From positions 1 through 64,000 of the forward strand of contig JAQSXR010000003.1 of the NCBI GenBank assembly GCA_029256575.1: a stretch of 64,000 nt of DNA, given 5' to 3'. This document shows, piece by piece, positions 1 to 18,456 of the stretch. Both the position numbers and the translations under genes were made by a program. Origin of the DNA: Clostridiales bacterium (lineage in GTDB: Bacteria; Bacillota; Clostridia; Lachnospirales; JAQSXR01). Every line of letters starts with the position of its first letter. The first letter of the stretch is position 1. Under the pieces are notes generated by a model. It was not told the DNA's origin and did no database searches. It saw only the letters and a list, made by a program, of their open reading frames with translations.

Positions 1-721
1 TATCTTCGTAGATCATGGCTTACTTCGTAAAAATGAAGGCGATGATGTAGAAAGAATATTTAGAAAACAATTTGATATGAACTTAATCCGAGTAAATGCC
101 CAAGATAGATTCCTAGGCAAATTAGCTGACGTATCCGATCCAGAAACAAAGAGAAAAATAATCGGCGAAGAGTTCATTCGTGTTTTCGAAGAAGAAGCTA
201 AGAAAATAGGAACAGTAGATTTCTTAGTTCAAGGAACAATATACCCTGACGTAATCGAAAGTGGAGTTGGCGATGCAGCAGTAATTAAGAGCCATCATAA
301 TGTAGGCGGACTACCTGATTATGTTGACTTCAAAGAAATAATCGAACCACTCAGAGAATTATTTAAAGACGAAGTTAGACGTGTTGGTATGGAGTTAGAT
401 ATTCCAAGAGATCTAGTAATGAGACAACCATTTCCTGGACCTGGACTTGCAATCAGAATCATTGGTGATATCACACAAGAAAAGATTGATATCTTACAAG
501 ATGCAGATGCCATCTTTAGAGAAGAAATTGCATTAGCAGGCTTAGATAAAGAGATACACCAATACTTTGCGGTTCTTACGAATATGAGAAGCGTTGGAGT
601 AATGGGAGATTCAAGAACTTACGATTATACAGTAGCACTTCGTGGGGTAACGACTTCGGACTTTATGACAGCTGACTGGGCTAGAACGAGTAAACCACCG
701 TCGACGATTGAGTGGGAATAA
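1..721 (+). CDS. guaA: GMP synthase (glutamine-hydrolysing), C-terminal part
   Basis: The gene enters from the left edge; the open frame runs from base 2 ([10 protein letters not shown]) to the TAA at 719-721. It makes GMP from XMP, ATP and glutamine in purine synthesis. The part seen covers the end of the ATP-pyrophosphatase domain and the dimerisation domain. Family hallmarks are visible: [13 protein letters not shown], the [16 protein letters not shown] segment and the terminal PPSTIEWE. The glutaminase domain lies outside the window. The last codons double as an integration site: the final 14 bp recur at 17325-17338. Identification is certain; only the 5' part is missing. Confidence 0.98.
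708..721 (+). repeat. attL-like direct repeat in the guaA 3' end
   Basis: TTGAGTGGGAATAA forms the last codons and stop of guaA and is repeated exactly at 17325-17338. The two copies bracket the accessory block, as expected for the crossover core of a tyrosine-recombinase element inserted at the end of guaA, a known integration hotspot. Confidence 0.8.
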
Positions 722-730
722 AAAAGAGAA

Positions 731-768
731 AGTCTACAAACCTTTTAAATAAGGGTTTGTAGACTTTT
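731..768 (+). terminator. Rho-independent terminator after guaA
   Basis: A 12-bp stem (AGTCTACAAACC paired with GGTTTGTAGACT) is followed by a T-rich tract, 10 bases after the guaA stop. It lies inside the island's left end. Confidence 0.85.
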
Positions 769-779
769 GATTTTAGTTA

Positions 780-799
780 TGGCTCTACTTTGGCTCTAA
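780..799 (+). repeat. Left copy of 20-bp subterminal island repeat
   Basis: TGGCTCTACTTTGGCTCTAA contains two GGCTCTA units 11 bp apart. A copy differing at one base is at 17197-17216 near the right end, in the same orientation. This arrangement suggests arm-type integrase binding sites. The left copy also contains the stop codon of the integrase remnant on the minus strand. Confidence 0.6.
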
Positions 800-1124
800 T
801 TGTATTTTTGAAGAGTTGATTTTATTTATCTTGTTGTCTATCCTTTGAATTGATTTGTTAATGGTGATAGTCTTATTTATAAAATTAATAATTAATATCA
901 GATATGGTAATAGAATAAACTCGCCTATTCTTAGTCCAGTCCAATAAAATACCTCAAAAGCCATTTTTGATTGAGGTTTATGTGATATACATGTTATAAA
1001 ATTTTGATATCCTTCTTTTGTCCAAAAAAGCATTTCATCAGCATTTTTTTCTTCATACTACTAGATTTTTGACAGGGATTTTCTCTCAAATCATAATACT
1101 TAACGACATAATTGAAAATAGTGC
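785..1124 (-). pseudogene. Tyrosine recombinase (phage integrase) fragment, copy 1
   Basis: The open part (785-1033) reads MLFWTKEGYQNF, then MAFEVFYWTGLRIGEF, the box I region of phage-type integrases, then INKSIQRI. It closely matches the same segment of the fragment at 4440-5008. DNA similarity continues upstream to about 1124, but a frameshift in a T-run breaks the reading frame. Everything after box I (the HxxR and tyrosine boxes) is replaced by low-complexity sequence ending LEPK. It is probably the relic of the integrase that inserted the island, lying in the expected place next to guaA. Confidence 0.8.
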
Positions 1125-1593
1125 AATTCATAAAACCGTATAAAAGTACGGTACTTTTTGATCTCATCTAGTATTAATAGTAATATGATAAAAGGACTTA
1201 AATAAATAGACTTAACATTTATATAAAACTTATAGTCACTTTTAATTTAGAATAGCCTATAAAAAGTCATAATACCCTATACCAGAAAAAATGGAATAGG
1301 GCTGTTTTTATTTTATAGTAAAACTTATAAAGCTATACTGAGTAAATGATTTTTTACTAATCTTAAGGAAAATAGAAATTATTTTGTTGAAATTAGTAAA
1401 ATGTGGTATCGTAACATTTACAATATCAACAAAAATGATATAATATTAATATATATTTTTAGAAAATGTAACTAAGTATTATAATGATTCAAGTTGACAG
1501 TAAATAGGCTACAGAAATTTCATCATATTTAGTTCGAATTGCAGATTATAGTAATAATGGGAAGTTGGATATTAGTAGGTCAAGGAGCTTTAT
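1125..1593. other. Non-coding gap with one hairpin
   Basis: About 470 bp of A/T-rich DNA between the integrase relic and the DUF2971 relic. No coding sequence is supported. The only clear structure is the stem-loop at 1275-1310. A GTACGGTAC palindrome occurs near 1146. Confidence 0.6.
1275..1310 (+). terminator. Terminator-like hairpin
   Basis: CCCTATACCA and TGGAATAGGG pair around an A-rich loop, followed by CTGTTTTTATTTT. It is not adjacent to any intact gene and is probably left from a lost one. Confidence 0.5.
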
Positions 1594-2615
1594 ATGAATA
1601 AATTATTAGAATTTTCAGCAGAGTGCGCAGTATGGGAGAATAAATACTATCTTGATTTTGAAAGAATGAAAGGTTCTGTGTTTCATTATACTAGTGCTTT
1701 TGCATTAGAAAACATATTGAAAGGTAGAAAATTGTGGATTACCAAAAGTGATTTTCTAAATGATGAAACTGAATATAAGTATGATATAGAATTATCTAAA
1801 ACAATATTTAAAGAGAAGCGCTATAAATATATAAATGATAATATGTTCCATGAAATAGAAAAACAAATAAAGTCAAATTTAAAGAGAAGTTTTATATTTA
1901 GCACCTCAAGAAATACTGACTCAATAAATTTATGGAGTAATTATTCTAATAATGATGGATATTGTATCGGATTTAATCTTGAAGATATGGAAAAAAGGAT
2001 TCTCAACAAAAAAATATATGTTACCGGTAATATAATGAGTAATAAAGTTTATGGAAAATATTATATTCCAATTAGAGGACAGTTGGAATCTGTTGCAGCA
2101 TATCTATTACAAGTTATTTATGATCTTGATCGGCAAAGAGATATTATTATTGAAATATTTTCTCATATGGAAAACGTATCAGAAAAATATAATTTATACA
2201 GAAAATATAACTGAAAGTGAATTTCCACAACTTAAAGCTATTCATAATGGCGCTATTGATACAGCATTTACAACCTTAATGAAGCAAATACGTCTTTTTA
2301 AAAATCCATTATTTAAACAAGATGAAGAATATAGGATTGTTTTTGAGATAAATAAAAAGCTAGATGTAATAAAGTAAAGCAATTTAATGGTATATTTACT
2401 CCATATATAGAGGTAGGTTTTGATGAAGAAGGTCATTATCATAAAGGATTACCGATTGAATCGATTACTATAGGACCAAAGAATAATTTAGATATTGCTG
2501 AAAGAGGAATGAAACTTTTTCTTGAAAGTTTACAATATAAAACTACGAAAAAAGTCTATCTATTTGTGATGGTAAAATTTTATTGAAAAAATCGGATGTT
2601 CCACTTCGGTATTAA
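1594..2615 (+). pseudogene. DUF2971 family protein, frameshifted
   Basis: The N-terminal 200 codons carry the DUF2971 pattern: VFHYTSAFALENILKGRKLW, then FLNDETEYKYD, then INLWSNYSNNDGYCIGF. The reading frame changes three times: near 2190, near 2375 and near 2560. The pieces join into one protein: NPLFKQDEEYRIVF, then KQFNGIFTPYIEVGF, then ICDGKILLKKSDVPLRY and a stop at 2613-2615. This family is common in defence and accessory islands and has no firm biochemical role. Start ATG at 1594 has AAGGAG 6 bases upstream. Recognition is good; with three frameshifts the gene is dead. Confidence 0.8.
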
Positions 2616-2742
2616 TATTGTGATCTTGATAAAACTACTCTTACAGTTGGAATGTCTGTATAAGAGGGGTAAGCGGAATAATGTGAAGTTTATTTGATGA
2701 TAGTTACAATTATTAATGGTTATCTTACCAGAAGGGAATAGT

Positions 2743-3606
2743 ATGGATAGATATTATGATATAACAAATCCAGATGCTTCTTATGATTGGATACATGAAG
2801 TGTTACATTTGAAAAAAGGTGATTTAATCGAGAAGTATTGTATTAATTGTCACAACGATTTTGATCTTTTCTATGAAATGTTTTTACCACAAATAAAATC
2901 TTTTGATATTGAGAATATGGATATTGTAGCGTTTCAAGTAACAAGTAATAATGATGAATGTGCAGAGATAAAGAAAAACGGATTGCACAACCTGCAATGG
3001 ATATTAAGCAATGACACAGGGTTAAATTCCTTCCTGCAGCAAAGAGGTATACATTTTGACGTAGAAAAAAGGATTATGTATATAGGCGTTTATGGTTATG
3101 ATGTGGATTATGATAAATATAGAGAGTCAAAATATGATTCTGAAAAAAATGAAGGTACTGAAAAGGTAGGTCACAAATTGTATTATGATTTTCGAATCAA
3201 TGCTTTTTTATTCTGTGAGGATATTAACCGATATGGCACAATTCATAAAGCACCGGAGTTTTTATTTACTTTATCTTCTTTCAATGAAAAAACAGTAGGA
3301 ATGGACGAACAATGGGGGAATATAACAAAACAATATGTGGTGAAATTTAAAACAAAATTAAAGAATATTGCTTATTTAACATTTTATGATTGTGAAGAGG
3401 AATATATCTTGGATAGTCAGAATAATTGGATGGAGTTAAGAAAAAAAATGTTATCTAGAGCTATTGAGAGTACCTTTAGTAATTTGGTATCAGAGAAAGT
3501 AGTATATATGAAGCCTGAAATATTTATTAGCCCGAAGGATATATTAGAGTATGCCCCGGCAGAAAAATGGAGAAAAGATGTACTTAAATACTTTGGGAAA
3601 GAATGA
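2743..3606 (+). CDS. Unrecognised protein, first gene of a broken pair
   Basis: This 287-residue protein begins MDRYYDIT; the start at 2743 is chosen because GAAGGG lies about 6 bases upstream, although an ATG at 2716 is in frame. I do not recognise a family. It is acidic and rich in aromatic residues, with no membrane segment and one Cys pair (CINCHN). The stop at 3604-3606 lies one base before the ATG of the next gene (3608), which implies translational coupling and a two-gene unit. The partner gene is frameshifted. Possible roles (phage defence, toxin-antitoxin pair) rest on location only. Confidence 0.6.
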   Translation: MDRYYDITNPDASYDWIHEVLHLKKGDLIEKYCINCHNDFDLFYEMFLPQIKSFDIENMDIVAFQVTSNNDECAEIKKNGLHNLQWILSNDTGLNSFLQQRGIHFDVEKRIMYIGVYGYDVDYDKYRESKYDSEKNEGTEKVGHKLYYDFRINAFLFCEDINRYGTIHKAPEFLFTLSSFNEKTVGMDEQWGNITKQYVVKFKTKLKNIAYLTFYDCEEEYILDSQNNWMELRKKMLSRAIESTFSNLVSEKVVYMKPEIFISPKDILEYAPAEKWRKDVLKYFGKE

Positions 3607-3607
3607 G

Positions 3608-4454
3608 ATGTATCTGTCAGTTGCTGAAATATTAGGGACAGATATTGATATGGTTAGAAAATATATTTTGCAATCTATGAGTGATATTATAGATTGGAAT
3701 TATGATGAACATAGTATAGATAAAATGAATATAGCTGAGCTAATAAAAGAATGTGGTTGTAAAAAGCTGAAAAGAATTGATAGTTTGACTGTTAGCCATA
3801 TTACACCGAGAGAGAATATAGATACTGTGTGGAAAGAGGGATTTATGACTTTACCTCATGTACTGACTAAAAAAATATGTTGTCTAATTATCTTCAAAAA
3901 TTAGGATTTAAGTTTAGTTTTGATGATAAAAAGATTATAATGAAAAGAAACGGAGAAATAGTTGATATAGAAAAACTAGACTTTTCTAATCTGAAAATGC
4001 GTTTAGGTGGTGAAAAAACCCTCAATGATTTTAATGTGAATGGCTATTTATTCATTGATAAATTTGAATTAGTTGCAGTGAGAGGGTGGCTCGGTTCGCC
4101 AGAAATTCTAAAGAGTTTGGCGAATTCTTATTGGAAAATAGTATTGCTGATAACTATGCTGACAAATGTATCAATTATTATGTGTCCTTTGAGGTGCCGA
4201 TAGAAAAGGTAGATATTGAAGGATTCCCTGATTGGCTGGATGAGGACAGAAAGACGGATATTCTTTTGAAATATACAATCAATGCTTTGGCGTATGAAGA
4301 AAATAAAAGAAAGCACTATTTACAAATGTACAACCCAATTATTATGTTGAAAAGAAATTATGCAGTGCCTGGATCTGATATTCGTAAAGTATGGCGTTTT
4401 GACTATAAAGGGAGCAAGTTAGTTCCTATAATATCTTGTCGCTTTATCCTTTGA
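3608..4454 (+). pseudogene. Unrecognised protein, second gene of the pair, frameshifted
   Basis: The product starts MYLSVAEILGTDIDMVRKY and continues through SHITPRENIDTVWKEGFMTL. The frame shifts in an A-run near 3868, continues with MLSNYLQKLGFKFSF and LRLGGEKTLNDF-like text (residues MRLGGEKTLNDF), and shifts again near 4135 to SIADNYADKCINYYVSFEVP and MYNPIIMLKRNYAVPGSDI. Reassembled, it would be about 275 residues of one protein. The 3' end runs into integrase sequence near 4440, so the last codons are of chimeric origin. I do not know the family. It was probably co-translated with the upstream gene. Confidence 0.6.
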
Positions 4455-5008
4455 ATTGATTTATTTATTGAAATAGTCTTATCAATAAAATTAATATCTG
4501 ATACAGTAAAAGCCATAAGCTCACCTATTCTTATTCCAGTCCAATATAATACCTCAAAAGCCATTTTTGAATGAGGTTTATCAGATACACAGACTATAAA
4601 CTCTTGATATTCTTCTTTAGTCCAGAAAAGCATTTCATCAGCATTTTTCTTGCCCATACTACCAGCTTTATGGCATGGGTTTTCTTTAAGATCATAATAC
4701 CTAACAGCATAATTGAAAATAGCTATAAGTTGATTATTAATCGTCTTTAAATAAGTTTCCGCGTACCCCATACCCATTAGATTATTTTGCCACTTACGGA
4801 TATGAGTAGGCTTAATTTGATTTATAGGGGTATTTTCAAAGCAAGGCAATATCTTTAGCTTAATAATATATTTTTTGTTCTCTAAGGTCGAAATACGAAG
4901 CCTGGAGCTCATATCTTCAATGTACAAATCATATAGTGATTCAAAACTCATTGTAGTATCGCTTGATTGCTTTAATAAAAATTCTCGTTCGAATTCAAGA
5001 GCTTCCAT
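4440..5008 (-). pseudogene. Tyrosine recombinase (phage integrase) fragment, copy 2
   Basis: About 190 residues are open. They hold the SAM-like core-binding domain (SFESLYDLYIEDMSSRL, LKTINNQLIAIFNYAVRYY) and the first part of the catalytic domain with box I (VLYWTGIRIGEL). The N-terminal arm-binding domain is missing at the 5008 end. Everything after INKSIQRI is missing at the 4440 end, including the catalytic tyrosine. It is a better preserved paralogue of the fragment at 785-1124 and diverges from it at exactly the same residue, which suggests that the two copies arose by duplication or recombination of one truncated gene. Confidence 0.85.
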
Positions 5009-5039
5009 AAAAAAGAGCGATTAAATAATCGCTCTTTTT
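5009..5039. terminator. Bidirectional terminator hairpin
   Basis: AAAAGAGCGATTA pairs with TAATCGCTCTTTT with a 2-base loop and A/T tracts on both sides. It abuts the broken 5' end of integrase copy 2 and may mark the join of two unrelated segments. Confidence 0.7.
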
Positions 5040-5041
5040 GC

Positions 5042-5334
5042 ATGTAAATTATTATAAGCTCATGATTTTGATAGGGGGGACACGTCCCTTTATCATATTT
5101 TTTGGGTGGATTACTATGATAATCTCGAACAAGTTTTTCATACACTTTAAGTGCTTTCTGGATCCATGTTAAAAATTCGTGCGTTGGTTGAATTATATCT
5201 ACTAAGTATTTTCATACAAGTATGAAAAATCCTAAATCTCCGTATTCTTTCGAGATAGGAGATGTACGTTTTGCATTGGATATACTTTAATTTACCTAGA
5301 ATTGAACATAGAATTTTACTGAAAGCTATCTTAA
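5042..5334. other. Non-coding gap before the cassette-like array
   Basis: No gene is supported; a 64-codon minus-strand frame has no ribosome binding site. The gap contains a GGGGGACACGTCCC palindrome (5070-5094) like the GTCCCC repeats at 51.7 and 57.4 kb, and one arm of an inverted repeat (CTATCTTAATT 5325-5335, AATTAAGATAG 5356-5366). Confidence 0.5.
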
Positions 5335-5363
5335 TTGACAAAATATAGCATAAATGTTAAATT
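5335..5363 (+). promoter_or_regulatory. Candidate sigma-A promoter ahead of the cassette-like array
   Basis: A consensus -35 TTGACA (5335-5340) stands 17 bp before TAAATT (5358-5363). It reads into the duplicated gene fragment and then the row of small genes, all on the same strand. The -10 is only a 4/6 match. Confidence 0.45.
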
Positions 5364-5379
5364 AAGATAGATGAGGTAG

Positions 5380-5493
5380 CAGAAATAGAAGAGATTTCAC
5401 CTAAAATTCTATCACTGAGAATGAGAAACGCAGTTTCACATGATCATTTAAGGATTCAACCATTAGCTCCTGGAAAAGTCATGTTATCCGCAC
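5380..5493 (+). pseudogene. Duplicated 3' fragment of the HEPN gene at 6918-7391
   Basis: Bases 5380-5512 repeat 7255-7407 almost exactly, except that 20 bp (7354-7373) are missing. The fragment encodes the end of the HEPN protein including its RNAVSH motif, then runs into the shared 18-bp boundary motif. It has no start of its own and looks like the tail of a deleted cassette. Confidence 0.85.
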
Positions 5494-5511
5494 TAGTACG
5501 ATAAATTTTAA
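5494..5511 (+). repeat. Cassette-boundary motif, copy A
   Basis: TAGTACGATAAATTTTAA, identical to copy C. It follows the duplicated HEPN tail and precedes the gene at 5529. Confidence 0.85.
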
Positions 5512-5528
5512 TTTTGATGAGGTGTAAT

Positions 5529-6212
5529 ATGGAAGAAATGCAAGCCCTTAATAGGATGCTTTACCTTGATTATTTGAATGAAGAAGAAAAAGCGTTGATT
5601 GATGCTTTGGAAGAAGAATTTAAGAATAGGGGAGCTGATTATACATTAGCTGCGTTGTGGAACTATGATTCGTTTTTAGGTGGTATTGGATGCTATAGTA
5701 TGCCTGCTGATCCTAAAAAGAATCCATTTTCAGGTGGTTATTTAAGATATTTATTTCGTCCACTTCAGTATGTTAGATGTAGCATGGAGATATTAGATTT
5801 AAATTATACTGCACGTGATGCAATTAGAGACACTGGATTGTATCTGGAGTTTGTAATGAAGTTCTCGTTGAAAAAGCGTAGAGGAATATTATCCATCGTT
5901 AATAACAATGGTACATTAGGTAAGTTGTCTCACAAACTCTATAATTTAAAGTCGATTAGTGACGATCAATTTGAGTGCATGAAGAGTATTATAAAGATCT
6001 ATAATAAAAGCAAGCATGAGATTAATTCTGATGTGAACAGAAGTATGAGCTTTGCACCAATAGATGCAGTTGTCTTTTATCTTGTAGCAAGGAAGGTAAC
6101 TATGGATTTATTGATGCCATATTATGATGAGATCTACCAAAATTTTGGTGATCGACTACAATATTTTCACATTAACTATGGATTTATACGGGGCTTTGGA
6201 TTTGTTGAATAG
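5529..6212 (+). CDS. Unrecognised 227-residue protein of the array
   Basis: The start is put at ATG 5529 because GAGGTG lies 5 bases upstream; a TTG at 5514 is in frame but has no such site. The protein is soluble and mostly helical by composition. It has an acidic N-terminus (NEEEKALIDALEEEFKN) and a C-terminal segment YNKSKHEINSDVN followed by FYLVARKV. The KSKHE stretch resembles HEPN/Abi-like helices, but I cannot assign a family. It is bounded on both sides by the 18-bp motif (5494 and 6245) and reads in the same direction as its neighbours. No frameshift is seen. Confidence 0.65.
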   Translation: MEEMQALNRMLYLDYLNEEEKALIDALEEEFKNRGADYTLAALWNYDSFLGGIGCYSMPADPKKNPFSGGYLRYLFRPLQYVRCSMEILDLNYTARDAIRDTGLYLEFVMKFSLKKRRGILSIVNNNGTLGKLSHKLYNLKSISDDQFECMKSIIKIYNKSKHEINSDVNRSMSFAPIDAVVFYLVARKVTMDLLMPYYDEIYQNFGDRLQYFHINYGFIRGFGFVE

Positions 6213-6244
6213 ACCTCGTTGTTTCAATCCTATAACGTCGTATC

Positions 6245-6262
6245 TAGTACGATAAAATTTAA
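6245..6262 (+). repeat. Cassette-boundary motif, copy B
   Basis: TAGTACGATAAAATTTAA, one difference from copies A and C. The left flank TCGTATCTAGTACGA is a near palindrome. Confidence 0.8.
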
Positions 6263-6274
6263 ATTATGAGATGG

Positions 6275-6511
6275 TTGCTGTGCCTAGGCTTGCAGAGCAA
6301 GGGTTAGCAACCAAAAGGGAACTTCTTGTTGTAATTCCGCTTACTATCTATATACTTGTAATTCTGATTATATATTGCAGAAAAGGAAAAGGTGATAAGA
6401 TGAAGAAAATGAGAAAACCTGGAGGGAAAGCATTAAAAGCAACACTACTTGAAACTATTAAAGAAACAAGTGAGAATGGTAGGAAGTGCCCTGCTAGCCT
6501 AAGCACACCAA
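6275..6511. repeat. Short unit bounded by imperfect inverted repeats
   Basis: GTGCCTAGGCTTGCAGAGCA (6280-6299) matches the reverse complement of 6487-6506 at 17 of 20 bases, with weaker matching just outside. The unit fills most of the space between motif copies B and C. A frame inside it (from ATG 6271) encodes a hydrophobic helix (LLVVIPLTIYILVILIIYC) then basic residues, but it has no clear ribosome binding site and reads through motif C, so I do not call it a gene. It could be a miniature transposable element or a cassette with folded ends. Confidence 0.45.
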
Positions 6512-6518
6512 TAATATT

Positions 6519-6536
6519 TAGTACGATAAATTTTAA
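6519..6536 (+). repeat. Cassette-boundary motif, copy C
   Basis: TAGTACGATAAATTTTAA, identical to copy A; it precedes the zinc-ribbon gene at 6576. Confidence 0.85.
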
Positions 6537-6575
6537 GAATCCCTACAATTTTGAATTTGAAAGGAGAAGGTAATT

Positions 6576-6797
6576 ATGAAAAGGATAAAAGGATCAAATG
6601 TTAAAGTGACGACCGATTCAACAGGAGGATTTGTAAGTGTTGATTGGGAGTGTCCATATTGTGGAGATTATAATGCTGGTTTTTATTTTTCTTCCAAAGA
6701 GGACATACTCAATGGTGATTTTAAAATTGATAAAGAATGCGAGAGCTGTAATAAAATGGTGACAATTGAATGCAGAGACTCTGGGGTGCTAATTTAG
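6576..6797 (+). CDS. Small zinc-ribbon protein of the array
   Basis: This 73-residue protein has two Cys pairs, CPYC near residue 27 and CESC near residue 56, typical of a zinc ribbon. The strong site AAAGGAGAAGG lies 6 bases before the ATG. The function is unknown; such proteins may bind nucleic acid or a partner protein. It sits between motif copies C (6519) and D (6856) on the same strand as the other array genes. The frame is intact and the cysteine spacing supports a real gene. Confidence 0.75.
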   Translation: MKRIKGSNVKVTTDSTGGFVSVDWECPYCGDYNAGFYFSSKEDILNGDFKIDKECESCNKMVTIECRDSGVLI

Positions 6798-6855
6798 TAA
6801 AACAAATTCCAGTGTGTACACCACGTTAAATTCCAATTTATAGAGAAAAGTAAAG

Positions 6856-6873
6856 TAGTACTATAAATTTTAA
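6856..6873 (+). repeat. Cassette-boundary motif, copy D
   Basis: TAGTACTATAAATTTTAA, one difference from the consensus. It is followed by a 44-base leader to the HEPN gene. Confidence 0.8.
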
Positions 6874-6917
6874 GGTGTAAGACTAGTTTAATTGGAAAAT
6901 TGTGAAGGAGAATGATT

Positions 6918-7391
6918 ATGTCAGCGTATAGTACAGATGATTATGAGTTTAGTTTTGCAGAACGTACAATTAAAAATTTAGAATTGATACAACGTAGGGT
7001 TTCAGATGAAAAAGAACAAGGAAAAAGCGATAAAGACATTACAGATGCTTTTGAAGTTACTCAACTTATTAATAGTTTTGTGGGGTTATTGATAATACCT
7101 AGACAGAAGTGTTTTAAATATATGCCGGATGATATAAAGTTTCCTCGAAATAGTGCAGCAGAGGAGCTGTTTGGAAGAATTAAGAATGACTCAAATATAT
7201 GTGAATATACCTATTTTAAGCAAAAACGTCTAAATGGGAAATGGGTAAAAACATCAGAAATAGAAGAGATTTCACCTAAAATTCTATCACTGAGAATGAG
7301 AAACGCAGTTTCACATGATCATTTAAGGATTCAACCATTAGCTCCTGGAAAAGCTTTATCAGAGTTATTACTGTCATGTTATCCGCACTAG
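6918..7391 (+). CDS. HEPN-family protein, probable RNase-type defence gene
   Basis: The 157-residue product contains RNAVSH, the Rx4H motif of HEPN ribonucleases, in a helical C-terminus (SLRMRNAVSHDHLRI). Its N-terminus (ERTIKNLEL, VTQLINSFVGLLIIP) resembles the small HEPN family often found on plasmids and in islands. Start 6918 has AAGGAG 7 bases upstream; ATG 6912 is too close to that site. The stop codon TAG is itself the first three bases of motif copy E. A truncated duplicate of the 3' end lies at 5380. HEPN proteins usually cleave RNA in toxin-antitoxin or abortive-infection systems; no antitoxin is obvious beside this one. Confidence 0.75.
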   Translation: MSAYSTDDYEFSFAERTIKNLELIQRRVSDEKEQGKSDKDITDAFEVTQLINSFVGLLIIPRQKCFKYMPDDIKFPRNSAAEELFGRIKNDSNICEYTYFKQKRLNGKWVKTSEIEEISPKILSLRMRNAVSHDHLRIQPLAPGKALSELLLSCYPH

Positions 7392-7406
7392 TACGGTAAA
7401 TTTTAA
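7389..7406 (+). repeat. Cassette-boundary motif, copy E
   Basis: TAGTACGGTAAATTTTAA. It overlaps the HEPN stop codon. The flanking TTATCCGCAC is shared with copy A through duplication. Confidence 0.8.
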
Positions 7407-7442
7407 TTTGAGGTTATATAGGTGGGAAGAAGGAGTGCTGTT

Positions 7443-8108
7443 TTGTTAGAAAATTTAGAAGAATATATAGAGCCCTTTTCACGACATATATGTGATATTG
7501 AAAAAGATTACAGTAGTACACTTCAAAGTATTGAAAACTATTTTAATAAATTTCAAATAGCAGAAGATCTTAAATATGGCTATATGGGCAGAGTTTGGAT
7601 ATTGATTGGAAAAAAGAATGAAGAATCGGCATTCGAGTCATTAATGGTTGCACAAAGTGAGAACATATATAACGAAATTATTACAGATGTCTATTATATG
7701 TACAATGAAGATTACATAAAACGATATGAGAATGATAAGGATTGGAAGTTAGAAAAGGAAATAAGGTATAACCTTGACCTTATAAAAAGTCCACAAAAAG
7801 CTAAAATTAATACAAATAGCAACTTCTATCTATATCCAAAAGATCAATTCAAACATAAGAAGCAGTATTTGTATCGACGTTTAATGAAGAACTATAGGTA
7901 TCTAAAAATTTATGAAATCGATATTGATGTTTATCTTAAGCCTTCGTTTATGTTCGATGAGAGCGAACGTAATATATATGAGTTGGCAAAGGATTATTAT
8001 GCGGAATCAAAATTGGCAATAGAAACAAATTCGTTATATTGGAATTACTATAAGTCAGGTATTGGAAAGCGGGCATTTTATTTTTTTAAAAAAAGCAGAG
8101 AAAGATAA
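7443..8108 (+). CDS. Unrecognised 221-residue protein of the array
   Basis: The start is set at TTG 7443, which has AGGAG 7 bases upstream; an in-frame GTG at 7422 lacks a good site. The sequence is rich in Tyr, Lys and Glu, with no membrane segment and no cysteine pairs. Notable pieces are YGYMGRVWILIGKKNEESAF near the start and YLYPKDQFKHKKQYLYRRL in the middle. I do not recognise the family. It is bounded by motif copies E (7389) and F (8114). The intact frame and spacing support a real gene. Confidence 0.6.
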   Translation: MLENLEEYIEPFSRHICDIEKDYSSTLQSIENYFNKFQIAEDLKYGYMGRVWILIGKKNEESAFESLMVAQSENIYNEIITDVYYMYNEDYIKRYENDKDWKLEKEIRYNLDLIKSPQKAKINTNSNFYLYPKDQFKHKKQYLYRRLMKNYRYLKIYEIDIDVYLKPSFMFDESERNIYELAKDYYAESKLAIETNSLYWNYYKSGIGKRAFYFFKKSRER

Positions 8109-8113
8109 TTTGT

Positions 8114-8131
8114 TAGTATTACAAATTTTAA
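8114..8131 (+). repeat. Cassette-boundary motif, copy F (degenerate)
   Basis: TAGTATTACAAATTTTAA keeps TAGTA and AAATTTTAA but differs in the middle. It is the last recognisable copy and precedes the hsdR tail. Confidence 0.6.
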
Positions 8132-8145
8132 ATTTATGAGAGGAT

Positions 8146-9071
8146 GTGGAAGTATGGTTCTATACATTTGATTACACAGGTTTTTTTGGCAAATCAGATA
8201 CAGAACGTTTAAAGACAATAGCGAATGGCGTTAATTTCGCATTAGGCGTTGAAGAAGATGAAGCAAAAGAGTTCGTAAAAGAAGCAACAGCACTTAGTCA
8301 GGCAGAGACACTTTGCCGTAGTTTGATATATGAAAAACTAAAAAAGAAATAGAATACTTCAAGTGTGTAAAAGCAGGACTTTGTAAAGTTGGTGGCAAAG
8401 GAAAAGTTACATCAAATGAAATAAATGCACGTATTGTAAAGATGCTTGAGCAGGCAATCGAGCAGGATGGTGTATTTAATATCTTCGAACAAGCTGGAAA
8501 GAAGAATCCAGAAATATCACTGCTTTCTGACGAATACATGGAGCAGATCAGAAGAATGAAACATAAAAATATTGCTACAGAATTATTACGTAATCTATTG
8601 GAAGATAACATTAGAGCGTTTGCAAGAACTGGTGTTGTAAAATCGCAACTTTTCTCTGAGAAGTTGAAGGATGTGTTGAAACGCTACAATAACCGCATGA
8701 TTACAAGTGCGGAGGTTATAGAGGAACTTCTCAATCTCTCTAAGGAAATCACAGATGCGTATAAGGCTGGCGATGACAAAGGATTAACTCATGAAGAATT
8801 AGCTTTCTATGATGCACTTATTGCAGACCCAGAAGTTCTTCGTAATATGGAAGACAAAATTCTTGTTGAAATGGCTCATGAACTTACTGATTTGATTAGA
8901 AAGAGTAGGACGGTTGACTGGGATAAGAAAGAATCTGCCAGGGCTTATATGAGAACACGAGTAAAGCACTTATTAAGAAAGTATAAGTATCCACCAGAAC
9001 AAGACAAAACTGCGATAGATGTCGTAATCAAGCAGGCTGAACTTATGAGTGCAAATATTATGCCTTTATAA
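8146..9071 (+). pseudogene. hsdR: Type I restriction enzyme R subunit, C-terminal fragment
   Basis: Only the helical C-terminal region that docks on the modification complex is present. Signature stretches are ALSQAETLCRSLI, TSNEINARIVKMLEQAIEQ, GLTHEELAFYDALI and the end RTVDWDKKESARAYM with YKYPPEQ. The nuclease and helicase domains are missing. A frameshift in an A-run near 8340 separates the first 66 codons from the rest; the joined frame reads EIEYFKCVKAGLCKV. No hsdM or hsdS is in the window. It is a dead remnant joined directly to motif copy F. Confidence 0.88.
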
Positions 9072-9584
9072 AAGGAAAGTGATACATACATATCAACGTG
9101 GTATAAAAAACTTGAGTGAGATAGTAAATATTACACGGAGGAAGTAGAATGGCCTCGCCTTCTAGACTTTTATGAGAGTTTTTTAGTTCACTGGGAGAAT
9201 GATGAACCTCAAAGGGTTTACGAATGATTTCTTCAAAGGGACGCATGACTGCAATCATGCTTTTCTCTTTTCAAACATCAATTGCAACTGCATTTGTATC
9301 CATAGGCAATGCTCCAATCAAGATGATATGTATTGTATCGTTTTACTCATTGTCAATTTAATTTGCTTGGTGACACGAACGCCCTGAGATACTAGTGGTT
9401 CAACCCGCTGAAACGAACGTTGCAAAAAGAAGGATGGCTGACGATTTCTCTTACTGACATTAGTTCAAAGGAGGGGGCGTCAAACCCAATACCTTCTTTT
9501 TAGCTTAGACAAGAGATGGAAGGAAACGTAACTGGAGTGTTATGTTTGGATCCAAATATATAGTAGCAAATGAGGGGTTAAGAA
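9072..9584. other. Unassigned 0.5-kb region upstream of the NACHT gene
   Basis: No convincing full gene. A 35-codon tail (DSKYYTEEVEWPRLLDFYES and on to a stop at 9209) may be the end of a lost protein. Bases 9370-9505 contain possible RNA structure: ACGCCC near 9379 can pair with GGGCGT near 9475, and AAAAAGAAGG (9424-9433) with CCTTCTTTTT (9492-9501). A GAGGGG ribosome binding site for the next gene lies near 9572. I could not match the region to a known RNA family. Confidence 0.4.
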
Positions 9585-12539
9585 ATGAAGTGGCTTGCAT
9601 CTGAAATTGGAAGCATATTGGTTGAAGTTGGGAAAGGCTCTTTTAATGGGTTTTGGGGTAAGATCAAGCTATTCCATATTAAAAAAAAGCTTAAGAAAAA
9701 GTTGTTTTGTGTAGTTTTGAATATATATGGGGATAAATTGTTTTATAATGAACTGGATTACTTTCTATCAACAAATAAAGTAATTCATAATGTGATCATA
9801 AATTGTGAGTCCGTACCTATTCATCAATATAGATCTAGAAGTCAGATGATTCAATATTATGTGCAATTATTTTCCGAAAAACATCCAAATTACGTTCACT
9901 ATAAATCTGAAATTTATTCAATACTTCAAAGATGCTTTGAATTAATATTCAATACTCTAAATGATATGAGTACGGATGAAAATATCCGAGTCATTAGTAA
10001 TATAGCTAAAGAGTTGGCTGGTGAACTTTCGATTGAAATGAAAGAGATTAAGGGCGAATTATCTTTAATAAACAATAAAATTGACACGTTACTTGTCCGA
10101 AATGAAAGAAAATTGGATGATACAAAGAATATTGTACTTGAGCAATATTTTGAGTGTTTAGCTCGTTTATATCTTGAAAAAAAGAACTATAGTTTTATAT
10201 CAAGGAACTTATTTTTTAAGGATGAAGAAGAAAAAGATATTGATTCGTTAGAAGCATTACTAAAAAATAGACATCTCTTATTGCTTGGGGATGCAGGTTA
10301 TGGTAAGACTTACGAATCAATTGATTTACTAAGTAAAGTATGTACCGACCCCAAAACAAATGGCTTGTTACCTTTTTACTTACCTTTATATGAATACGAA
10401 ACGATTTATTCAAGCATTATAGAGGGGATCCAATATAAAATAAAGCCTTTCTGTGAAGGTAATTCTGAGAAACTAGTGAAGCAGTGGCTTGCAAATGGAC
10501 AAATTGTTCTTATCCTTGATGGTATTGATGATATTCAAACTTATAAAGCAAGAAATAAGTTTATTGCAGAAGCTAAAAATATTGCTTTACAATATGAGCA
10601 GTGCTACTTATTCATTACTTCTCGATTTAACAGATATAATGGTGAATTAGGAAATATAAGGGAGTATTACTTAAGGGGTTTAAGTAGAGATATTATACGT
10701 GAACAACTACAAGATGAAAATATTCATACTGAAGTACCCGATAACTATTATCAGTTATTTGAAAATCCAATGTTTTTTAATGTTGGCAAGACGGTATTGA
10801 AGAAAAACCACCATCGTGAACTTTTCAATAGAAGTATCTTATTTGAAGAACTAATGATATTGCTTTGTGGGGAATGGGATAAGAGAAAAGGTATCTTGCC
10901 TGTTCAATCAGTTAGCTATACAGATATATTTGGCCTTCTCGGGCAATATGCCTTTGATAATTTTAACCAATCTTACAGTAGGATTTTAGAATTTGATCAA
11001 TATATATCGAAGTATACTACATCTGAAAACAAATCTCTATTTATAAATACTTTATTAGGAACTGGTGTTTTGAAGGTAACAGACAAGGTTACATTTGCAC
11101 ATAAACTTTTTAAAGAGTATTTCGCCGCCTATCATATGGTTCATACATATGCTTTATCAGAAAATACCTCAATGTATTTAGAGTTGCTAAAACGTGATGA
11201 TTGGAAAGAAGTATTTGTTTTCGCTTCTGGTATGTATAACAAAATTGAATACCAAGACGCATATCTAGATTTCATCATGAACAATAACTTACAACTATAT
11301 ATTGAGTGTATTAATGCAAAAAGTGATTTAAGTATACAATTAACTTTATCTGGAAGTAGTGAGTTTGTAAAACGATACCTTAATCAAATAGTTAAAACTT
11401 ATGCTTTTATCGTTGATATGTATTTTCAACCTATTAAGTTTTGTTTTGATCCAAAGCCAGGAAAAGCCGAGGAGAACATAGATGTGAAGAAAATAGGAAT
11501 AGTTGGTTGCATGTCTAAAAATGGAGAACATTTGAGCTATTGGTTTGATCGTGTTATGCCTAATGAGAAAGAAGTACTTTGTATAGATGAAGAGCAGATA
11601 GCAGAATATCATAAATGCCGTGAAAGACAGGCTTTGTTTAAACGAAAAAATATCACCAGTTATTGGTTGAATCTTAGTACTTCAGGTCTAGTTGGTGATA
11701 GTGGTCGTAAAGTAGCTATTGATTTAATTAAAAAAGAGATTGGATCAATATTAGAGAAGAAAATACTTTTCGAGAGCAAATATCTATTATGTGAAAGATT
11801 GGATAATTGTAAAAGTAAAATAAAAGAAATCAAAGATTTATCTGATTTGACACAAATGTACACTATAGTTGAAAATATGATTCAAAAAGAAGCAGAGGGG
11901 AAGACCAATTTTGTAGGGTATAAAAAGAATGGTATTGATATGTTCTATTTGTACTCATTGTTAAAGATTATTATCGAAAACGATATTGAATATAGTGATT
12001 GTTTATTACCCAAAGAGGATACTAGGCCAAATAAATCATCTTGTTGGACATGGGAGTTATATACAGATGCTCAGAAAACAAACAGAATATCAAAGTTTTT
12101 TTATTTCCATCAGATAAGTTATTTAGAAATGGTTGAAACTAATTTCCCAATGCTGTTTAATAAATTTTCAAGATATATAGATGCTCCATATCAGAATATT
12201 GTGCTTATATATCTAAGAGAGGATAGAGAGCAAAAAGATATGTTTTCAGAACCAGTTATAACTCATTATTATATTGCATCTCCTACTAATTATCCTGAAC
12301 CACCGCAATTTCGATATCAAAGTAGTCAGGATGAATATATCGGGTACCGTAATGACATCTATAACGAAATTAAGCAGAGTTATTTAAAACAAGGAAAAGA
12401 GGTACATGAATTTGGATATTCACAAACAGGTTTTACTTTTACGACAACTTCAAGAAAATTTAGTGAAAACAGTCCTCTTTCTGATTATGTTTATGCTAGT
12501 ATTAAGGAAAGTATTGAAGAAATCCTCGGAAAGTTATAA
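9585..12539 (+). CDS. NACHT-domain STAND NTPase, probable antiphage defence protein
   Basis: The 984-residue protein has a NACHT NTPase core: Walker A GDAGYGKT (residues 235-242), Walker B LILDGIDDI (309-317), the sensor strand LFITSRF (about 348-354) and the winged-helix end FAHKLFKEYFAAYHM typical of bacterial NACHT proteins. Residues 1-180 form an unassigned helical N-terminal domain, which in this class often serves as effector or signalling module. The C-terminal 450 residues are an unassigned sensor-like region without visible repeats. Bacterial NACHT and Avs proteins oligomerise on sensing phage components and trigger cell death or growth arrest. GAGGGG lies 7 bases before the ATG. It is the longest intact gene in the island; family confident, function inferred. 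Confidence 0.85.
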   Translation: MKWLASEIGSILVEVGKGSFNGFWGKIKLFHIKKKLKKKLFCVVLNIYGDKLFYNELDYFLSTNKVIHNVIINCESVPIHQYRSRSQMIQYYVQLFSEKHPNYVHYKSEIYSILQRCFELIFNTLNDMSTDENIRVISNIAKELAGELSIEMKEIKGELSLINNKIDTLLVRNERKLDDTKNIVLEQYFECLARLYLEKKNYSFISRNLFFKDEEEKDIDSLEALLKNRHLLLLGDAGYGKTYESIDLLSKVCTDPKTNGLLPFYLPLYEYETIYSSIIEGIQYKIKPFCEGNSEKLVKQWLANGQIVLILDGIDDIQTYKARNKFIAEAKNIALQYEQCYLFITSRFNRYNGELGNIREYYLRGLSRDIIREQLQDENIHTEVPDNYYQLFENPMFFNVGKTVLKKNHHRELFNRSILFEELMILLCGEWDKRKGILPVQSVSYTDIFGLLGQYAFDNFNQSYSRILEFDQYISKYTTSENKSLFINTLLGTGVLKVTDKVTFAHKLFKEYFAAYHMVHTYALSENTSMYLELLKRDDWKEVFVFASGMYNKIEYQDAYLDFIMNNNLQLYIECINAKSDLSIQLTLSGSSEFVKRYLNQIVKTYAFIVDMYFQPIKFCFDPKPGKAEENIDVKKIGIVGCMSKNGEHLSYWFDRVMPNEKEVLCIDEEQIAEYHKCRERQALFKRKNITSYWLNLSTSGLVGDSGRKVAIDLIKKEIGSILEKKILFESKYLLCERLDNCKSKIKEIKDLSDLTQMYTIVENMIQKEAEGKTNFVGYKKNGIDMFYLYSLLKIIIENDIEYSDCLLPKEDTRPNKSSCWTWELYTDAQKTNRISKFFYFHQISYLEMVETNFPMLFNKFSRYIDAPYQNIVLIYLREDREQKDMFSEPVITHYYIASPTNYPEPPQFRYQSSQDEYIGYRNDIYNEIKQSYLKQGKEVHEFGYSQTGFTFTTTSRKFSENSPLSDYVYASIKESIEEILGKL

Positions 12540-12671
12540 CTCATGGGCTAGCTATTTTATAAGTGACGCATCAGAATAACTTGTACAAGTATATTCACAC
12601 ACAGACAAGAAGGAACATTTCATCATCCTTATAAAGAATAGCGCGATTCACTTCGCATTATGCAATGATGC

Positions 12672-12899
12672 TTAACTGAATATCATTGCAAGTAGATTTG
12701 AATTTACAGCATCCTGTAGATGTCTCTCATCAACATCTGTTTAAATTTCTGTTGTGGAAATACTATCATGTCCAAGTAAGGAACGCATATCTACGTGGCC
12801 ATACTTACATATTAAGGTTGCTGATGTGTGTCTGAGCTTATGTGTGGACAAACCTTCAGGATTTATTCCAGCAGCAACTATATGCTTTTTCACAGCGTT
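12672..12899 (-). pseudogene. XerC/D-like recombinase C-terminal remnant with catalytic Tyr changed to stop
   Basis: The minus strand reads AVKKHIVAAGINPEGL, then STHKLRHTSATL (box with HxxR), then HVDMRSLLGHDSISTTEI. At the position of the catalytic tyrosine there is TAA, after which TDVDERHLQDAVNSN continues in frame. The homologous part starts at a stop codon at 12900, beside a perfect hairpin. It belongs to a different recombinase subfamily from the integrase fragments at 0.8 and 4.4 kb. It is clearly dead and shows that several mobile elements have passed through this island. Confidence 0.85.
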
Positions 12900-12902
12900 T
12901 TA

Positions 12903-12928
12903 GAGGGCACTTGTTGTCAAGTGCCCTC
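12903..12928. repeat. Perfect 11-bp inverted repeat
   Basis: GAGGGCACTTG, a 4-base loop, then CAAGTGCCCTC. No T-run follows on either strand, so it is not a standard terminator. It lies exactly at the broken edge of the recombinase remnant and may be a mobile-element end or attenuator relic. Confidence 0.6.
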
Positions 12929-13148
12929 CGTTACGTGAGATAAAAAGAGTGTTTTTGTATTAACGGTTATTGAGTTTCGTACAGAGTCCATTTTGTTATT
13001 GATTGTTTGACGCTGGAGTCATAAAGATTTTACACGGATCTACTTATGCGTACGAATATGCGGGAATTAAGTTATCAGATATTCTGATAGGTAGTAATTG
13101 CAAAGATGATTGTAGAAAAGAAATAATAACTTAATTGGGGATAGATAA

Positions 13149-13485
13149 ATGAATTACAACAAGGCTTTATCTAGTATATTTAAATTCCCATTACCAATTT
13201 TTAATGCTAAATTTGATGTGTGTAAAACACCGTTCATGGAAACAGGAGAATGAGTTTAGAATTCTATATCCTATTATACGTCTAAAGGAAAATGGAAAGC
13301 GGTTATCTGATATAGAAATGGGTATAAAAATGAAGGTAATATATATTGGTAAAGAATGCAATACTCGTAATAAAATGAAATTGGTGAATATTGCTACTAG
13401 GTTTAAAAGGGAGATACATCAGATGAGTGTTAGTGATCACAGTTCATTTTTTGATATGGGTTTTGATAGTGTTACATATAGATAG
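13149..13485 (+). pseudogene. DUF2971-like remnant
   Basis: A short frame starting at 13149 (MNYNKALSSIF) shifts into the frame that holds CVKHRSWKQENEFRILYP and MKVIYIGKECN, the C-terminal pattern of DUF2971 proteins (a Cys or Ser, KH, W, E-x-E-x-R). Just upstream (13024-13134) another open piece reads KILHGSTYAYEYAGIKL and could come from a related gene. The N-terminal half is missing. Assignment is tentative because only the tail motif is visible. Confidence 0.45.
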
Positions 13486-13651
13486 GAAACTACCAATTAT
13501 ATTTATATCATACAACTTATAACATAAATAATGTGAAATTGTGAGCATTACGTCGTACTATTTTATTCATTCTTGTATTTTTCCCATACATAGGGCTCAG
13601 AAGCAATTGGCGGATATTAAAAAAATACCAAAGTAAGGAAGGATGCAAATT

Positions 13652-14476
13652 ATGAATAATGATCCTAAAATAAAGGATTTCAAAAGTTCAGAAGATTTAG
13701 TTATATTTTTGAACTTAATTATAGAACTATCATTAAAGCATTTTAATCGTTTCAATATGTATTACGATGAATTGTCTGAGAAAAGTATAAAAACACTAAG
13801 TGAAATTACCAATATAGAAACAAATAAAATAACAGATTCTTCTTTTAAAGAAATTCTATTATCATCAATGAATATGAAACTTTACTCTGAAAATCGACAA
13901 AAGCACAGGTTAAGATATATGGATTATAAAAGTCTTGAAGATAAAATGAATTTTGTAGGTGGTCAGTTGCTTAATCTACTTGCAGATCGTACTAAAAAAG
14001 GGGGAGTATCATATTGGCGCTTTCGTGAAGAAATTAAAAAACTTCAAGAGAGGGAAAACACGAAATTACTTGATTTAACCGGACTAGATGAAAAACTAAG
14101 GTATGAACTCAATAAACTATATTCAGAACGTAATTACACTCATCATATGACTGATGCTAAATTTATTGAATGGGAAAATTATAGAAAAAATCAATTAAAT
14201 GAACATGGTCTTAAAATGTTTGAATATTGGCCGACAGAGAAAATAGAAGTTAATGTTTTTGAATACGTTGAAGTTGAATGGTTATGGCAATTTTATTTAG
14301 TACAAATCGAATTTAAGAAGTCTGTAAGAAATGTAATCCAGCAAATGAAAAAAGACTACTCTATTTTATTTAAAAAGAGCATTCAAATACAAAAAAAATA
14401 TAATGACGTTATGAATTGTTCCCATTTTGAAATATCAATGAATGGAATTGAACGCCATCTAGGTAAAAAAAAATAA
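13652..14476 (+). CDS. Unrecognised helical protein with HEPN-like RNYTHH motif
   Basis: The 274-residue product is charged, helical and soluble. ATG 13652 is chosen because AAGGAAGG lies 9 bases upstream; the ATG at 13643 would overlap that site. Around residue 167 it has RNYTHH, which fits the Rx4-6H pattern of HEPN ribonucleases, in the context KLYSERNYTHHMTDAKF. The rest (EDKMNFVGGQLLNLLADRT, EVEWLWQFYLVQIEF) does not match a family I know. It stands alone, with a hairpin after it (14475-14495). The catalytic reading is inference; the frame is intact. Confidence 0.6.
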   Translation: MNNDPKIKDFKSSEDLVIFLNLIIELSLKHFNRFNMYYDELSEKSIKTLSEITNIETNKITDSSFKEILLSSMNMKLYSENRQKHRLRYMDYKSLEDKMNFVGGQLLNLLADRTKKGGVSYWRFREEIKKLQERENTKLLDLTGLDEKLRYELNKLYSERNYTHHMTDAKFIEWENYRKNQLNEHGLKMFEYWPTEKIEVNVFEYVEVEWLWQFYLVQIEFKKSVRNVIQQMKKDYSILFKKSIQIQKKYNDVMNCSHFEISMNGIERHLGKKK

Positions 14477-14495
14477 GTGCTATAAAAAAGCACTT
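14475..14495 (+). terminator. Weak hairpin after the HEPN-like gene
   Basis: AAGTGCT pairs with AGCACTT, followed by TCCAATTTTT. The stem is short and overlaps the stop codon region, so strength is uncertain. Confidence 0.35.
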
Positions 14496-14597
14496 TCCAA
14501 TTTTTGATAGAAAGATTAACAAGATACAATTGTTATAATCTTTTTCACAAGTCATATACAGATTACTATGTTAAATGCTTTGATGAAATATTGAACT

Positions 14598-15244
14598 ATG
14601 TCTATAATTTATGATATTATGCAGAGCGTTAATTCGGATTTCAGTTTCAAGAAAGGAAAGGGTTGTATGCAAGTTGCAAGTACAATTTCGGAGTTTTTTA
14701 GGGAAAAAATAACCGCTCTGATTGACTTGTCAAAAGCAGAAGACTCTTTTGCCAAACGTAAGGAGCAAAAGAACATCCTAGAACTTATTTCTGCATTCAT
14801 GGGAAATTTGTTAAGGGTAATCGACTTTTAATATTTGTTGATGAGTTGGATAGGTGTAAACCCAACTAGATAGTCCAACTTCTCGAACGAATCAAACATT
14901 ATTTTTCAAATGACTTGGTTATCTTTGTGTTCTATGGATCAATTGCAACACACGATTAAGCGATATTACGGAAACGACTTTGATGCCTGTCGATATCTAT
15001 GTTCGAGCAAATCAAATTCATCCTGGTCTACAGGTGACAAATATCCTGTTATATATTCTGCTCCAAATCTTCTTGCAGTCCTTATAAAACACTTTTATTT
15101 GCTAATTTACTTCCTGATCATCATGATTGGAATACATATATTGGGGATCGTGTTAAAAAGAGTAAAGATGTGGTATGGTCAATATTTATTGAAGAGTGGA
15201 ATAAACAATGTCAGAGTGAAGAAGAAGCTGCCTGCAAACATTGA
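14598..15244 (+). pseudogene. KAP-family P-loop NTPase remnant
   Basis: Pieces in several frames give a KAP NTPase middle region: KRKEQKNILELISAFMG, then after a frameshift near 14815 LLIFVDELDRCKPN (Walker B), an in-frame stop, VQLLERIKHYF, and after another shift LQHTIKRYYGNDFDACRYL. A further open piece to the stop at 15244 (LLPDHHDWNTYIGDRVKKS) may be the C-terminus of the same or another protein. Walker A is absent. KAP proteins occur in phage defence and membrane contexts. Multiple shifts and stops make it non-functional. Confidence 0.7.
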
Positions 15245-15288
15245 TGTAGTTGACTTTTTATTATAATTAAATGAAGGAAGTGAAATTT

Positions 15289-16032
15289 ATGTTTGGACTA
15301 TTTAATAAGACTAATGTTATAAAAGGTGAAAGGAATGAAGATTTGCCATTGACACATGAGGGGCTTCCAGACTCTTATAGACCAAATGGATTATGTCCGC
15401 GTTGCGGTAAACAATCAAGCTTTGAATCAATGGGTGAACTACCTGTAACTTTCTCCAGCGGAATGGTTCATCCTTCAGATGGGAGAAAACCCTATCGTTC
15501 CTATTCTGACAGAGTTACTTGTATGGTTTGCCGCCATTGTAATCAAGGGGTGGTTGTAATTGAAGAAGAATGGATTGGGGAACATCCTAGCAGGGAAGGG
15601 ATTGGAAATGGCGGAATAACTAGTTATCGCGGAATACACTGGTGGCCACTTCCACAAAGCAAGTTATCTGAGGATATTCCTAGCACTATAATAGATGTTT
15701 ATGCTGAAGCAGTTACAACATATTACGCACAAGCCCCTCGCGCAACAGCAGTTATGCTTAGAAGAACAATCGAGGCTATAGTAGTTTATTTTGGCGAAGA
15801 GAAAGGGGCACTTGCTCAAAGATTACAGATGCTTTCTGATAGAAATATTCTGCAACCTTCTCTAGCTGATTGGGCAAAAGAAGTAAGGTTGGTTGGAAAC
15901 CAAGGAGCCCATTTTGATCCAGCAGAAATGGTAAGTATGGATGATGTAACGCAGCTTATATTATTTGTACAAGAATTGATGAAGTATTTATTTACTCTGC
16001 CAGCAGAATTGTTGCGTCGAAGAAATCTGTGA
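15289..16032 (+). CDS. DUF4145 domain protein with N-terminal zinc ribbon
   Basis: The 247-residue product has a CPRCGKQ and CMVCRHC zinc-binding pair near residues 36 and 80, then the DUF4145 (HEPN-like) domain: RATAVMLRRTIEAIV, then LADWAKEVRLVGNQGAH and LPAELLRRR at the end. Start 15289 is preceded by GGAAGTG at a good distance; ATG 15271 is less likely. DUF4145 domains are often linked to restriction and other defence loci, but the molecular role is not settled. It is a single gene, intact, with a small hairpin after it (16029-16058). Confidence 0.82.
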   Translation: MFGLFNKTNVIKGERNEDLPLTHEGLPDSYRPNGLCPRCGKQSSFESMGELPVTFSSGMVHPSDGRKPYRSYSDRVTCMVCRHCNQGVVVIEEEWIGEHPSREGIGNGGITSYRGIHWWPLPQSKLSEDIPSTIIDVYAEAVTTYYAQAPRATAVMLRRTIEAIVVYFGEEKGALAQRLQMLSDRNILQPSLADWAKEVRLVGNQGAHFDPAEMVSMDDVTQLILFVQELMKYLFTLPAELLRRRNL

Positions 16033-16219
16033 TTTCGCAAATCTAGTATTAGAAATCACGGAAAGATTATTTATCTACTACAAATAAGGGAAATTACTAA
16101 TAAGATCTAGTAGATAACTTCGCATTATGTTTATAATAATATAACTTAAATACAATAAGCTTGTAATATTATAACCTCTTTAAGAATAGCATGTATAAAA
16201 TCATGTTTGAGGTGATGAA

Positions 16220-16663: not shown

Positions 16664-16854
16664 TTCATATAAAGTTATATACTAAGTATGGATCGATTTC
16701 CATGATGTTCTAATATTAGTTGGACTTGCTATTAATGGGATTCAAATATCAAAAATATAATGTATTCAGCATACAGACCACACACATTATTAATAAGTGA
16801 TATTGATCCATTAAAAGGAAAAAAGATTATTGAAGAGGATATGGATCCACAATG

Positions 16855-17121: not shown

Positions 17122-17196
17122 ATGAAAACAATATAATTATTTTTCGTATCTAAGATTCTTCTATTATATATCAATGTTATTCTAAGAAAGAAAAAA

Positions 17197-17338: not shown

Positions 17339-17351
17339 TCGCGACAGCAAC

Positions 17352-18442: not shown

Positions 18443-18456
18443 TATTTTAAAATGAG

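Follow-up and report, generated by a model that had tools for sequence, protein, structure and literature searches.

An orphaned gene array in a Clostridiales genome probably consists of cassettes of a tvr-like system associated with hsdS

The window analysed here comprises 64,000 nucleotides (nt) of a Clostridiales bacterium (assembly GCA_029256575.1, contig JAQSXR010000003.1, positions 1 to 64,000 of the forward strand) and carries, at 5335-8131, an array of small genes separated by copies of an 18-bp motif. Comparison with related type I restriction-modification (RM) loci makes it probable that these motifs are sites of an hsdS-shuffling tyrosine recombinase and that the array consists of cassettes of a tvr-like system located between hsdS and hsdR. 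The motif, TAGTACGATAAATTTTAA, was found in six copies with 0-3 mismatches, all on one strand and each at the end of one of the successive genes (Table 1). A sequence-only reading of this stretch had described six copies at gene junctions, and all were recovered at the same positions and on the same strand, falling at the ends of open reading frames (ORFs). The overlap with a stop codon reported in that reading was likewise confirmed, since the TAG at 7389 (site 5) terminates the HEPN ORF 6912-7391. Scanning of the window with up to 3 mismatches yielded seven matches, the seventh (3 mismatches) lying at 25301, versus 0.44 expected by chance, and none of 100 shuffled sequences reached seven. 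In the bacterium's own genome, copies with no more than 1 mismatch were confined to the first five sites of the array (reversed control: 0), which ruled out the spread of the motif as a genome-wide element. Three further places with 2 mismatches were located in or near unrelated genes.

Outside the window, type I RM loci were the only setting in which the motif pattern exceeded chance. The spread of the motif across Lachnospirales was not borne out: 8 of 392 genomes matched with no more than 1 mismatch, and the reversed control gave similar counts. Among 84,980 species genomes, 13 stretches matched exactly, four of which, from three genomes (Vallitalea sp., Fusibacter tunisiensis and Lachnospiraceae RGIG6281), lay in type I RM loci. 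For the other nine no hsd or recombinase homologue was found nearby within the stretches examined, and these exact matches (Shewanella, Lokiarchaeota, Bacillus, etc.), having no hsd genes near, were taken as chance. Searching viral contigs revealed a single exact match (locus L035). It immediately precedes the start of an intact hsdR, upstream of which the genes are separated by the motif variants TTAGGCGATAAATTTTAA and TAGTAGTTAAATTTTAA; further viral scans returned known loci or chance matches only. In Vallitalea, Fusibacter tunisiensis and RGIG6281, hsdS terminates with the TAG of the exact motif, and the viral contig L107 has a 1-mismatch motif at both of its hsdS stops. The hsdS tail ahead of the motif is alike in all four (...LMSGELDVSDLDI). 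The idea that the motif precedes all hsdR genes was rejected, as its occurrence ahead of hsdR is restricted to the closest clade of hsdR genes; among 399 genomes searched across the phylum, no member of this clade was found.

The gene order of the related loci revealed a recombinase within the restriction operon. In L107, hsdM is followed by a Pua-like gene, hsdS1, a site, a tyrosine recombinase gene (PF00589), hsdS2, a site and hsdR. L151 (RGIG6281) contains hsdM, hsdS1, a site, the recombinase gene, a gene for 72 amino acids (aa) and a frameshifted hsdS2, followed by a gene for 119 aa, a site, two genes and hsdR. The order in L036 (Vallitalea) is hsdM, recombinase fragment, hsdS, site, cassette, site and hsdR, and that in L152 (Fusibacter) is hsdM, hsdS, site, GNAT gene, decayed site and hsdR. 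The intact recombinases of L107 and L151, both encoded between hsdS1 and hsdS2, share 80% identity and form one clade (support 100/99). A tyrosine recombinase beside hsdS, between hsdM and hsdR, is thus present in L107 and L151, fragmentary in L036 and absent from the window and its genome. The earlier statement that no recombinase accompanies the array therefore stood for the own genome (a draft at 95% completeness, in which no recombinase of the hsdS-shuffling family was found and the best matches reached 29% and 35% identity over parts only) but not for the relatives, where such an enzyme co-occurs. The cargo in the window, L035, L036, L151 and L152 is unrelated to hsdS.

Relatives of this recombinase, whose identity to it within the clostridial set compared is mostly 55-67%, are in many cases encoded beside hsdS genes of opposite direction; they have TAAGCCGCTAAATTNTYGTTTA at the hsdS stop codons and inverted copies of it inside hsdS. 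Starting from the stop codon, TAAGCCGCTAAATTNTYGTTTA aligns position by position with the window motif (TAR-NNCG-N-TAAATT-Y-T), and the locus L124 carries an intermediate form, TGATACGATAAATTATCGTTTAT. The 18-bp motif would represent the left half and the spacer of the core site TAGTACG-ATAAAT-TTTA-ATTTAT of the hsdS-associated tyrosine recombinase. The window-type core ATAAAT-NNNN-ATTTA was met in direct orientation at three places, with the spacers TGTG at the hsdM end (L036 and L152), AGGA in mid-hsdS, and TTTA or TTTT at the hsdS tail and in the cassettes. The relatives have two kinds of direct repeat sharing this core in the same orientation; the window has tail-type sites only. The TAAGCCGCTAAATTNTYGTTTA loci as well as the hsdS inversion loci (ivr/cod, PsrA; PMC7096588) resemble the array in having the core site at the hsdS stop codon, and the TAAGCCGCTAAATTNTYGTTTA loci also in their related recombinase, PsrA being likened by description only. 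However, in the inversion loci the sites are inverted and hsdS is shuffled by inversion, whereas all sites of the window, L107, L151, L036 and L152 are direct and no inverted pair was found among them. Inverted site pairs occur in the related TAAGCCGC-type loci.

Comparison of the regions upstream of hsdR pointed to exchange at the site. The hsdR genes of L035, L036, L103 and L152 share 81-87% DNA identity over 3 kb; in the 900 bp upstream of them, only the last 25-43 bp are common, and these consist of the site region and the ribosome-binding leader. Beyond this common part the genes are unrelated, and the neighbours of hsdR differ in each of the four loci. As judged by this comparison, unrelated genes are exchanged at the site between related loci, in agreement with the earlier description of a cassette-like array with short recombination-type sites. 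Alternatively, the motif might act as a leader or regulatory element (a promoter, an operator or a translation leader) common to the genes of the operon and repeated because each of them needs it. The copies are indeed AT-rich, the distance to the next start codon is about 15-60 bp, and the motif stands ahead of hsdR in the relatives. We nevertheless consider this explanation very unlikely, since the homology between loci breaks at the motif, the motif holds the stop codon of hsdS or of the HEPN gene, and it follows hsdS even where the recombinase is the next gene. Moreover, promoter-like sites are no commoner than in shuffles, and at hsdS stops elsewhere, members of the recombinase family are accompanied by a matching site, in many cases in inverted pairs.

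The array in the window is best read as an orphaned one of five cassettes and one truncated (HEPN) copy; it ends at a broken hsdR. The duplicated gene tail that had been reported at one junction is real: 5380-5478 is 100% identical to 7255-7353, after which one copy lacks 20 nt. This deletion and one base inside the motif aside, both HEPN ends agree through the motif and begin to diverge about 3 nt beyond it. Divergence at this point would be the outcome expected from strand exchange in the spacer. The junctions could also be scars of hsdS, i.e., duplicated hsdS tails or products of ordinary homologous recombination and deletion, formed without a dedicated recombinase. Such an origin would fit the start of the motif with the hsdS stop codon, the lack of a working recombinase in several loci and the occurrence of decayed sites, but it appears improbable, because outside the motif the units are free of hsdS sequence, 18-22 bp are short for homologous recombination, and five clean units of the same direction within 2.6 kb are hard to obtain by chance. 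Finally, two of the loci do possess the recombinase.

The layout and the kinds of site correspond to those of the tvr locus (SpnIV) of Streptococcus pneumoniae, which contains midpoint and tail-end repeats (MPR and TER) with a shared core and one direction, and in which parts of hsdS are moved through circles made by TvrR, by excision and reintegration (PMC6265443). Both systems lie between hsdM and hsdR with a tyrosine recombinase beside hsdS genes, both possess two kinds of direct repeat (mid-hsdS and hsdS tail) with a common core in one orientation, and the order hsdM, hsdS, recombinase, hsdS, hsdR in L107 is that of tvr. TvrR was likened to the L107/L151 recombinase by locus layout and site types, not by sequence. 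The two differ in that tvr moves hsdS parts together with a toxin-antitoxin pair and the recombinase, whereas the sites here enclose unrelated genes in up to five units, and in that the tail site is about 22 bp long, in comparison to about 70 bp for TER. The proposal of a new cassette system consequently held with respect to the site-bounded unrelated genes, but the system is not wholly new. In E. coli, DarTG2 is embedded between hsdS and hsdR, and a recombination hotspot was merely suggested there (PMC12255303). Accessory genes fill the hsdS-hsdR gap in both cases; no recombination site or recombinase was described for DarTG2, however. A literature search that did not cover preprints retrieved no paper on site-bounded non-hsdS cassettes between hsdS and hsdR. 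An integron, or another described cassette platform, would also present an array of unrelated small genes on the same strand, each with a recombination-type site at its 3' end. This assignment is extremely unlikely for the array, and the earlier exclusion of an integron was upheld: instead of an attC-like folded site there is a core of 18-22 bp, and the two site regions folded with RNA parameters did not exceed shuffled sequences; a restriction operon serves as the platform, and the recombinase of the relatives groups with hsdS-shuffling enzymes.

Based on these comparisons, an intact locus would have the order hsdM, hsdS, site, units, site and hsdR, its sites all pointing one way. The recombinase would cut out, as a circle, whatever lies between two direct sites and could reinsert it at any other such site. 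In the interval from hsdS to hsdR, genes with a 3' site could thus be captured, lost, duplicated or moved, and the cassettes would be read in the direction of the operon. We infer that such an hsdS-associated recombinase moved the cassettes of the window, with circles as intermediates, and that their cargo has a role in defence. The window lacks the hsdM, hsdS and recombinase genes of its array, and its hsdR is broken. The hsdR remnant shows 82-84% identity to the HsdR of the closest relatives over the C-terminal 241-243 aa, and the cognate hsdM was not found in the draft genome. With these genes gone and hsdR broken, the array is therefore probably frozen now. The hsdR tail had been counted as another unit of the array; it is rather the fixed right end, because the array sits between hsdS and hsdR.

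Several points weigh against this interpretation. The exchange is read from sequence comparison, and no recombination was observed. The loci were compared across species, none of which offered two strains that differ in one cassette. No more than about six distinct loci with the site type of the window are known, the right arm of the site varies among copies, and the sites before hsdR are decayed or absent in L103, L105 and L151. Fusibacter and the window carry cassettes, yet their genomes have no recombinase of the hsdS-shuffling kind, and that of Vallitalea was found as a fragment only. Moreover, PADLOC detected no credible defence family in the cassettes.

How accessory and defence genes embedded between hsdS and hsdR enter this position is unexplained in the literature cited. 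The hsdS-tail site on unrelated cassettes, together with a recombinase of the type that acts in hsdS phase variation, offers a concrete and testable mechanism, and embedding of genes in restriction operons via hsdS-tail sites is plausible. More tentatively, and with slightly less than even confidence, we suggest that the hsdS-shuffling recombinases of Clostridia are a general cassette-capture machinery, in which any gene that gains an hsdS-tail site becomes mobile and expressed between hsdS and hsdR, so that restriction operons would provide accessory, possibly anti-phage, genes with an integron-like platform. The embedding mechanism would connect epigenetic phase variation to gene capture, and cassettes flanked by hsdS-tail sites could be searched for new candidate defence genes.

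A small gene whose product (72-79 aa) ends in CRKPSxAWKRQYxKLKG recurs beside hsdS and the recombinase (L122:799-1020; L194 near 8657; L151, reverse complement, 8312-8527). In L122 and L194 it ends at a TAAGCCGC site in place of hsdS; accessory genes therefore occur at inversion-type sites too. In the genome G333, a recombinase of the hsdS-shuffling family is encoded together with an AbrB-like antitoxin and a PIN-like toxin gene (the latter two named by eye) at L206:6003-9585. This unit is flanked by direct repeats of about 33 nt, does not adjoin hsd genes and is possibly a mini-element recalling tvrATR.

Table 1. Features of the array and of the adjoining hsdR remnant (coordinates in the window).
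Feature	Coordinates	Strand	Description
Promoter-like sequence, array head	5335-5363	+	TTGACA-17-TAAATT, consensus scan 10/12, TG before second hexamer
3' remnant of second HEPN cassette	5380-5493	+	5' part lost; identity to 7255-7353, then site 1
Site 1	5494-5511	+	TAGTACGATAAATTTTAA, 0 mismatches
Cassette 1	5512-6262	+	ORF 5529-6212 (227 aa) and site 2
Site 2	6245-6262	+	TAGTACGATAAAATTTAA, 1 mismatch
Cassette 2	6263-6536	+	274 bp, near-terminal inverted repeat, no convincing gene, and site 3
Site 3	6519-6536	+	TAGTACGATAAATTTTAA, 0 mismatches
Cassette 3	6537-6873	+	ORF 6576-6797 (73 aa) and site 4
Site 4	6856-6873	+	TAGTACTATAAATTTTAA, 1 mismatch
Cassette 4	6874-7406	+	ORF 6912-7391 (159 aa, HEPN pEK499_p136), stop = TAG of site 5
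Site 5	7389-7406	+	TAGTACGGTAAATTTTAA, 1 mismatch
Cassette 5	7407-8131	+	ORF 7422-8108 (228 aa) and site 6
Site 6	8114-8131	+	TAGTATTACAAATTTTAA, 3 mismatches; place of the pre-hsdR site of relatives
hsdR leader	8132-8148	+	ATTTATGAGAGGATGTG, fits ATxxATGAAAGGATGTG before intact hsdR of relatives
hsdR remnant	8146-9071	+	PF11867 matches; about 706 N-terminal codons deleted, frameshift near 8340

The proteins of the cassettes do not resemble one another, as had been stated before, and the Pfam matches were limited to PF18736 (HEPN; cassette 4, E 8.3e-14) and PF11867 (HsdR tail); the other cassette proteins, including those of 227 and 228 aa, gave no Pfam match, and the latter two had none in PADLOC either. 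The 73-aa protein of cassette 3 contains two CxxC pairs and appears zinc-ribbon-like by eye. The only relative found for the cassette 1 protein (35% identity) comes from a mobilizable plasmid of Exiguobacterium, where its gene immediately follows one for a caspase-family protein (L210:4480-6588; NZ_CP040675.1), and these two genes form a possible two-gene defence unit. Apart from this plasmid relative, neither the HEPN nor the 227-aa protein was found in viral contigs, phages or plasmids. Cassette 2 may be a small element inside the array. Its near-terminal inverted repeats are TGTGCCTAGGCTTGCAG and CTGCTAGCCTAAGCACA; the description of an inverted-repeat-bounded unit was not supported at the RNA level, where the fold of 6263-6536 was not significant versus shuffles (z = -1.33). 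The promoter-like sequence at the head of the array was graded weak, because such sites are no commoner in this region than in shuffles. No terminator-like site was found in the array, and Rfam gave no match in positions 1-20000 of the window.

Three partial tyrosine integrase genes are located on the minus strand (785-1167, 4403-5145 and 12741-12893), in a region that follows the 3' end of guaA (77-721), and probably reflect repeated island insertion at guaA. Downstream of the hsdR remnant, 9585-12539 encodes a protein of 984 aa with a weak NACHT match (E 7.9e-5).

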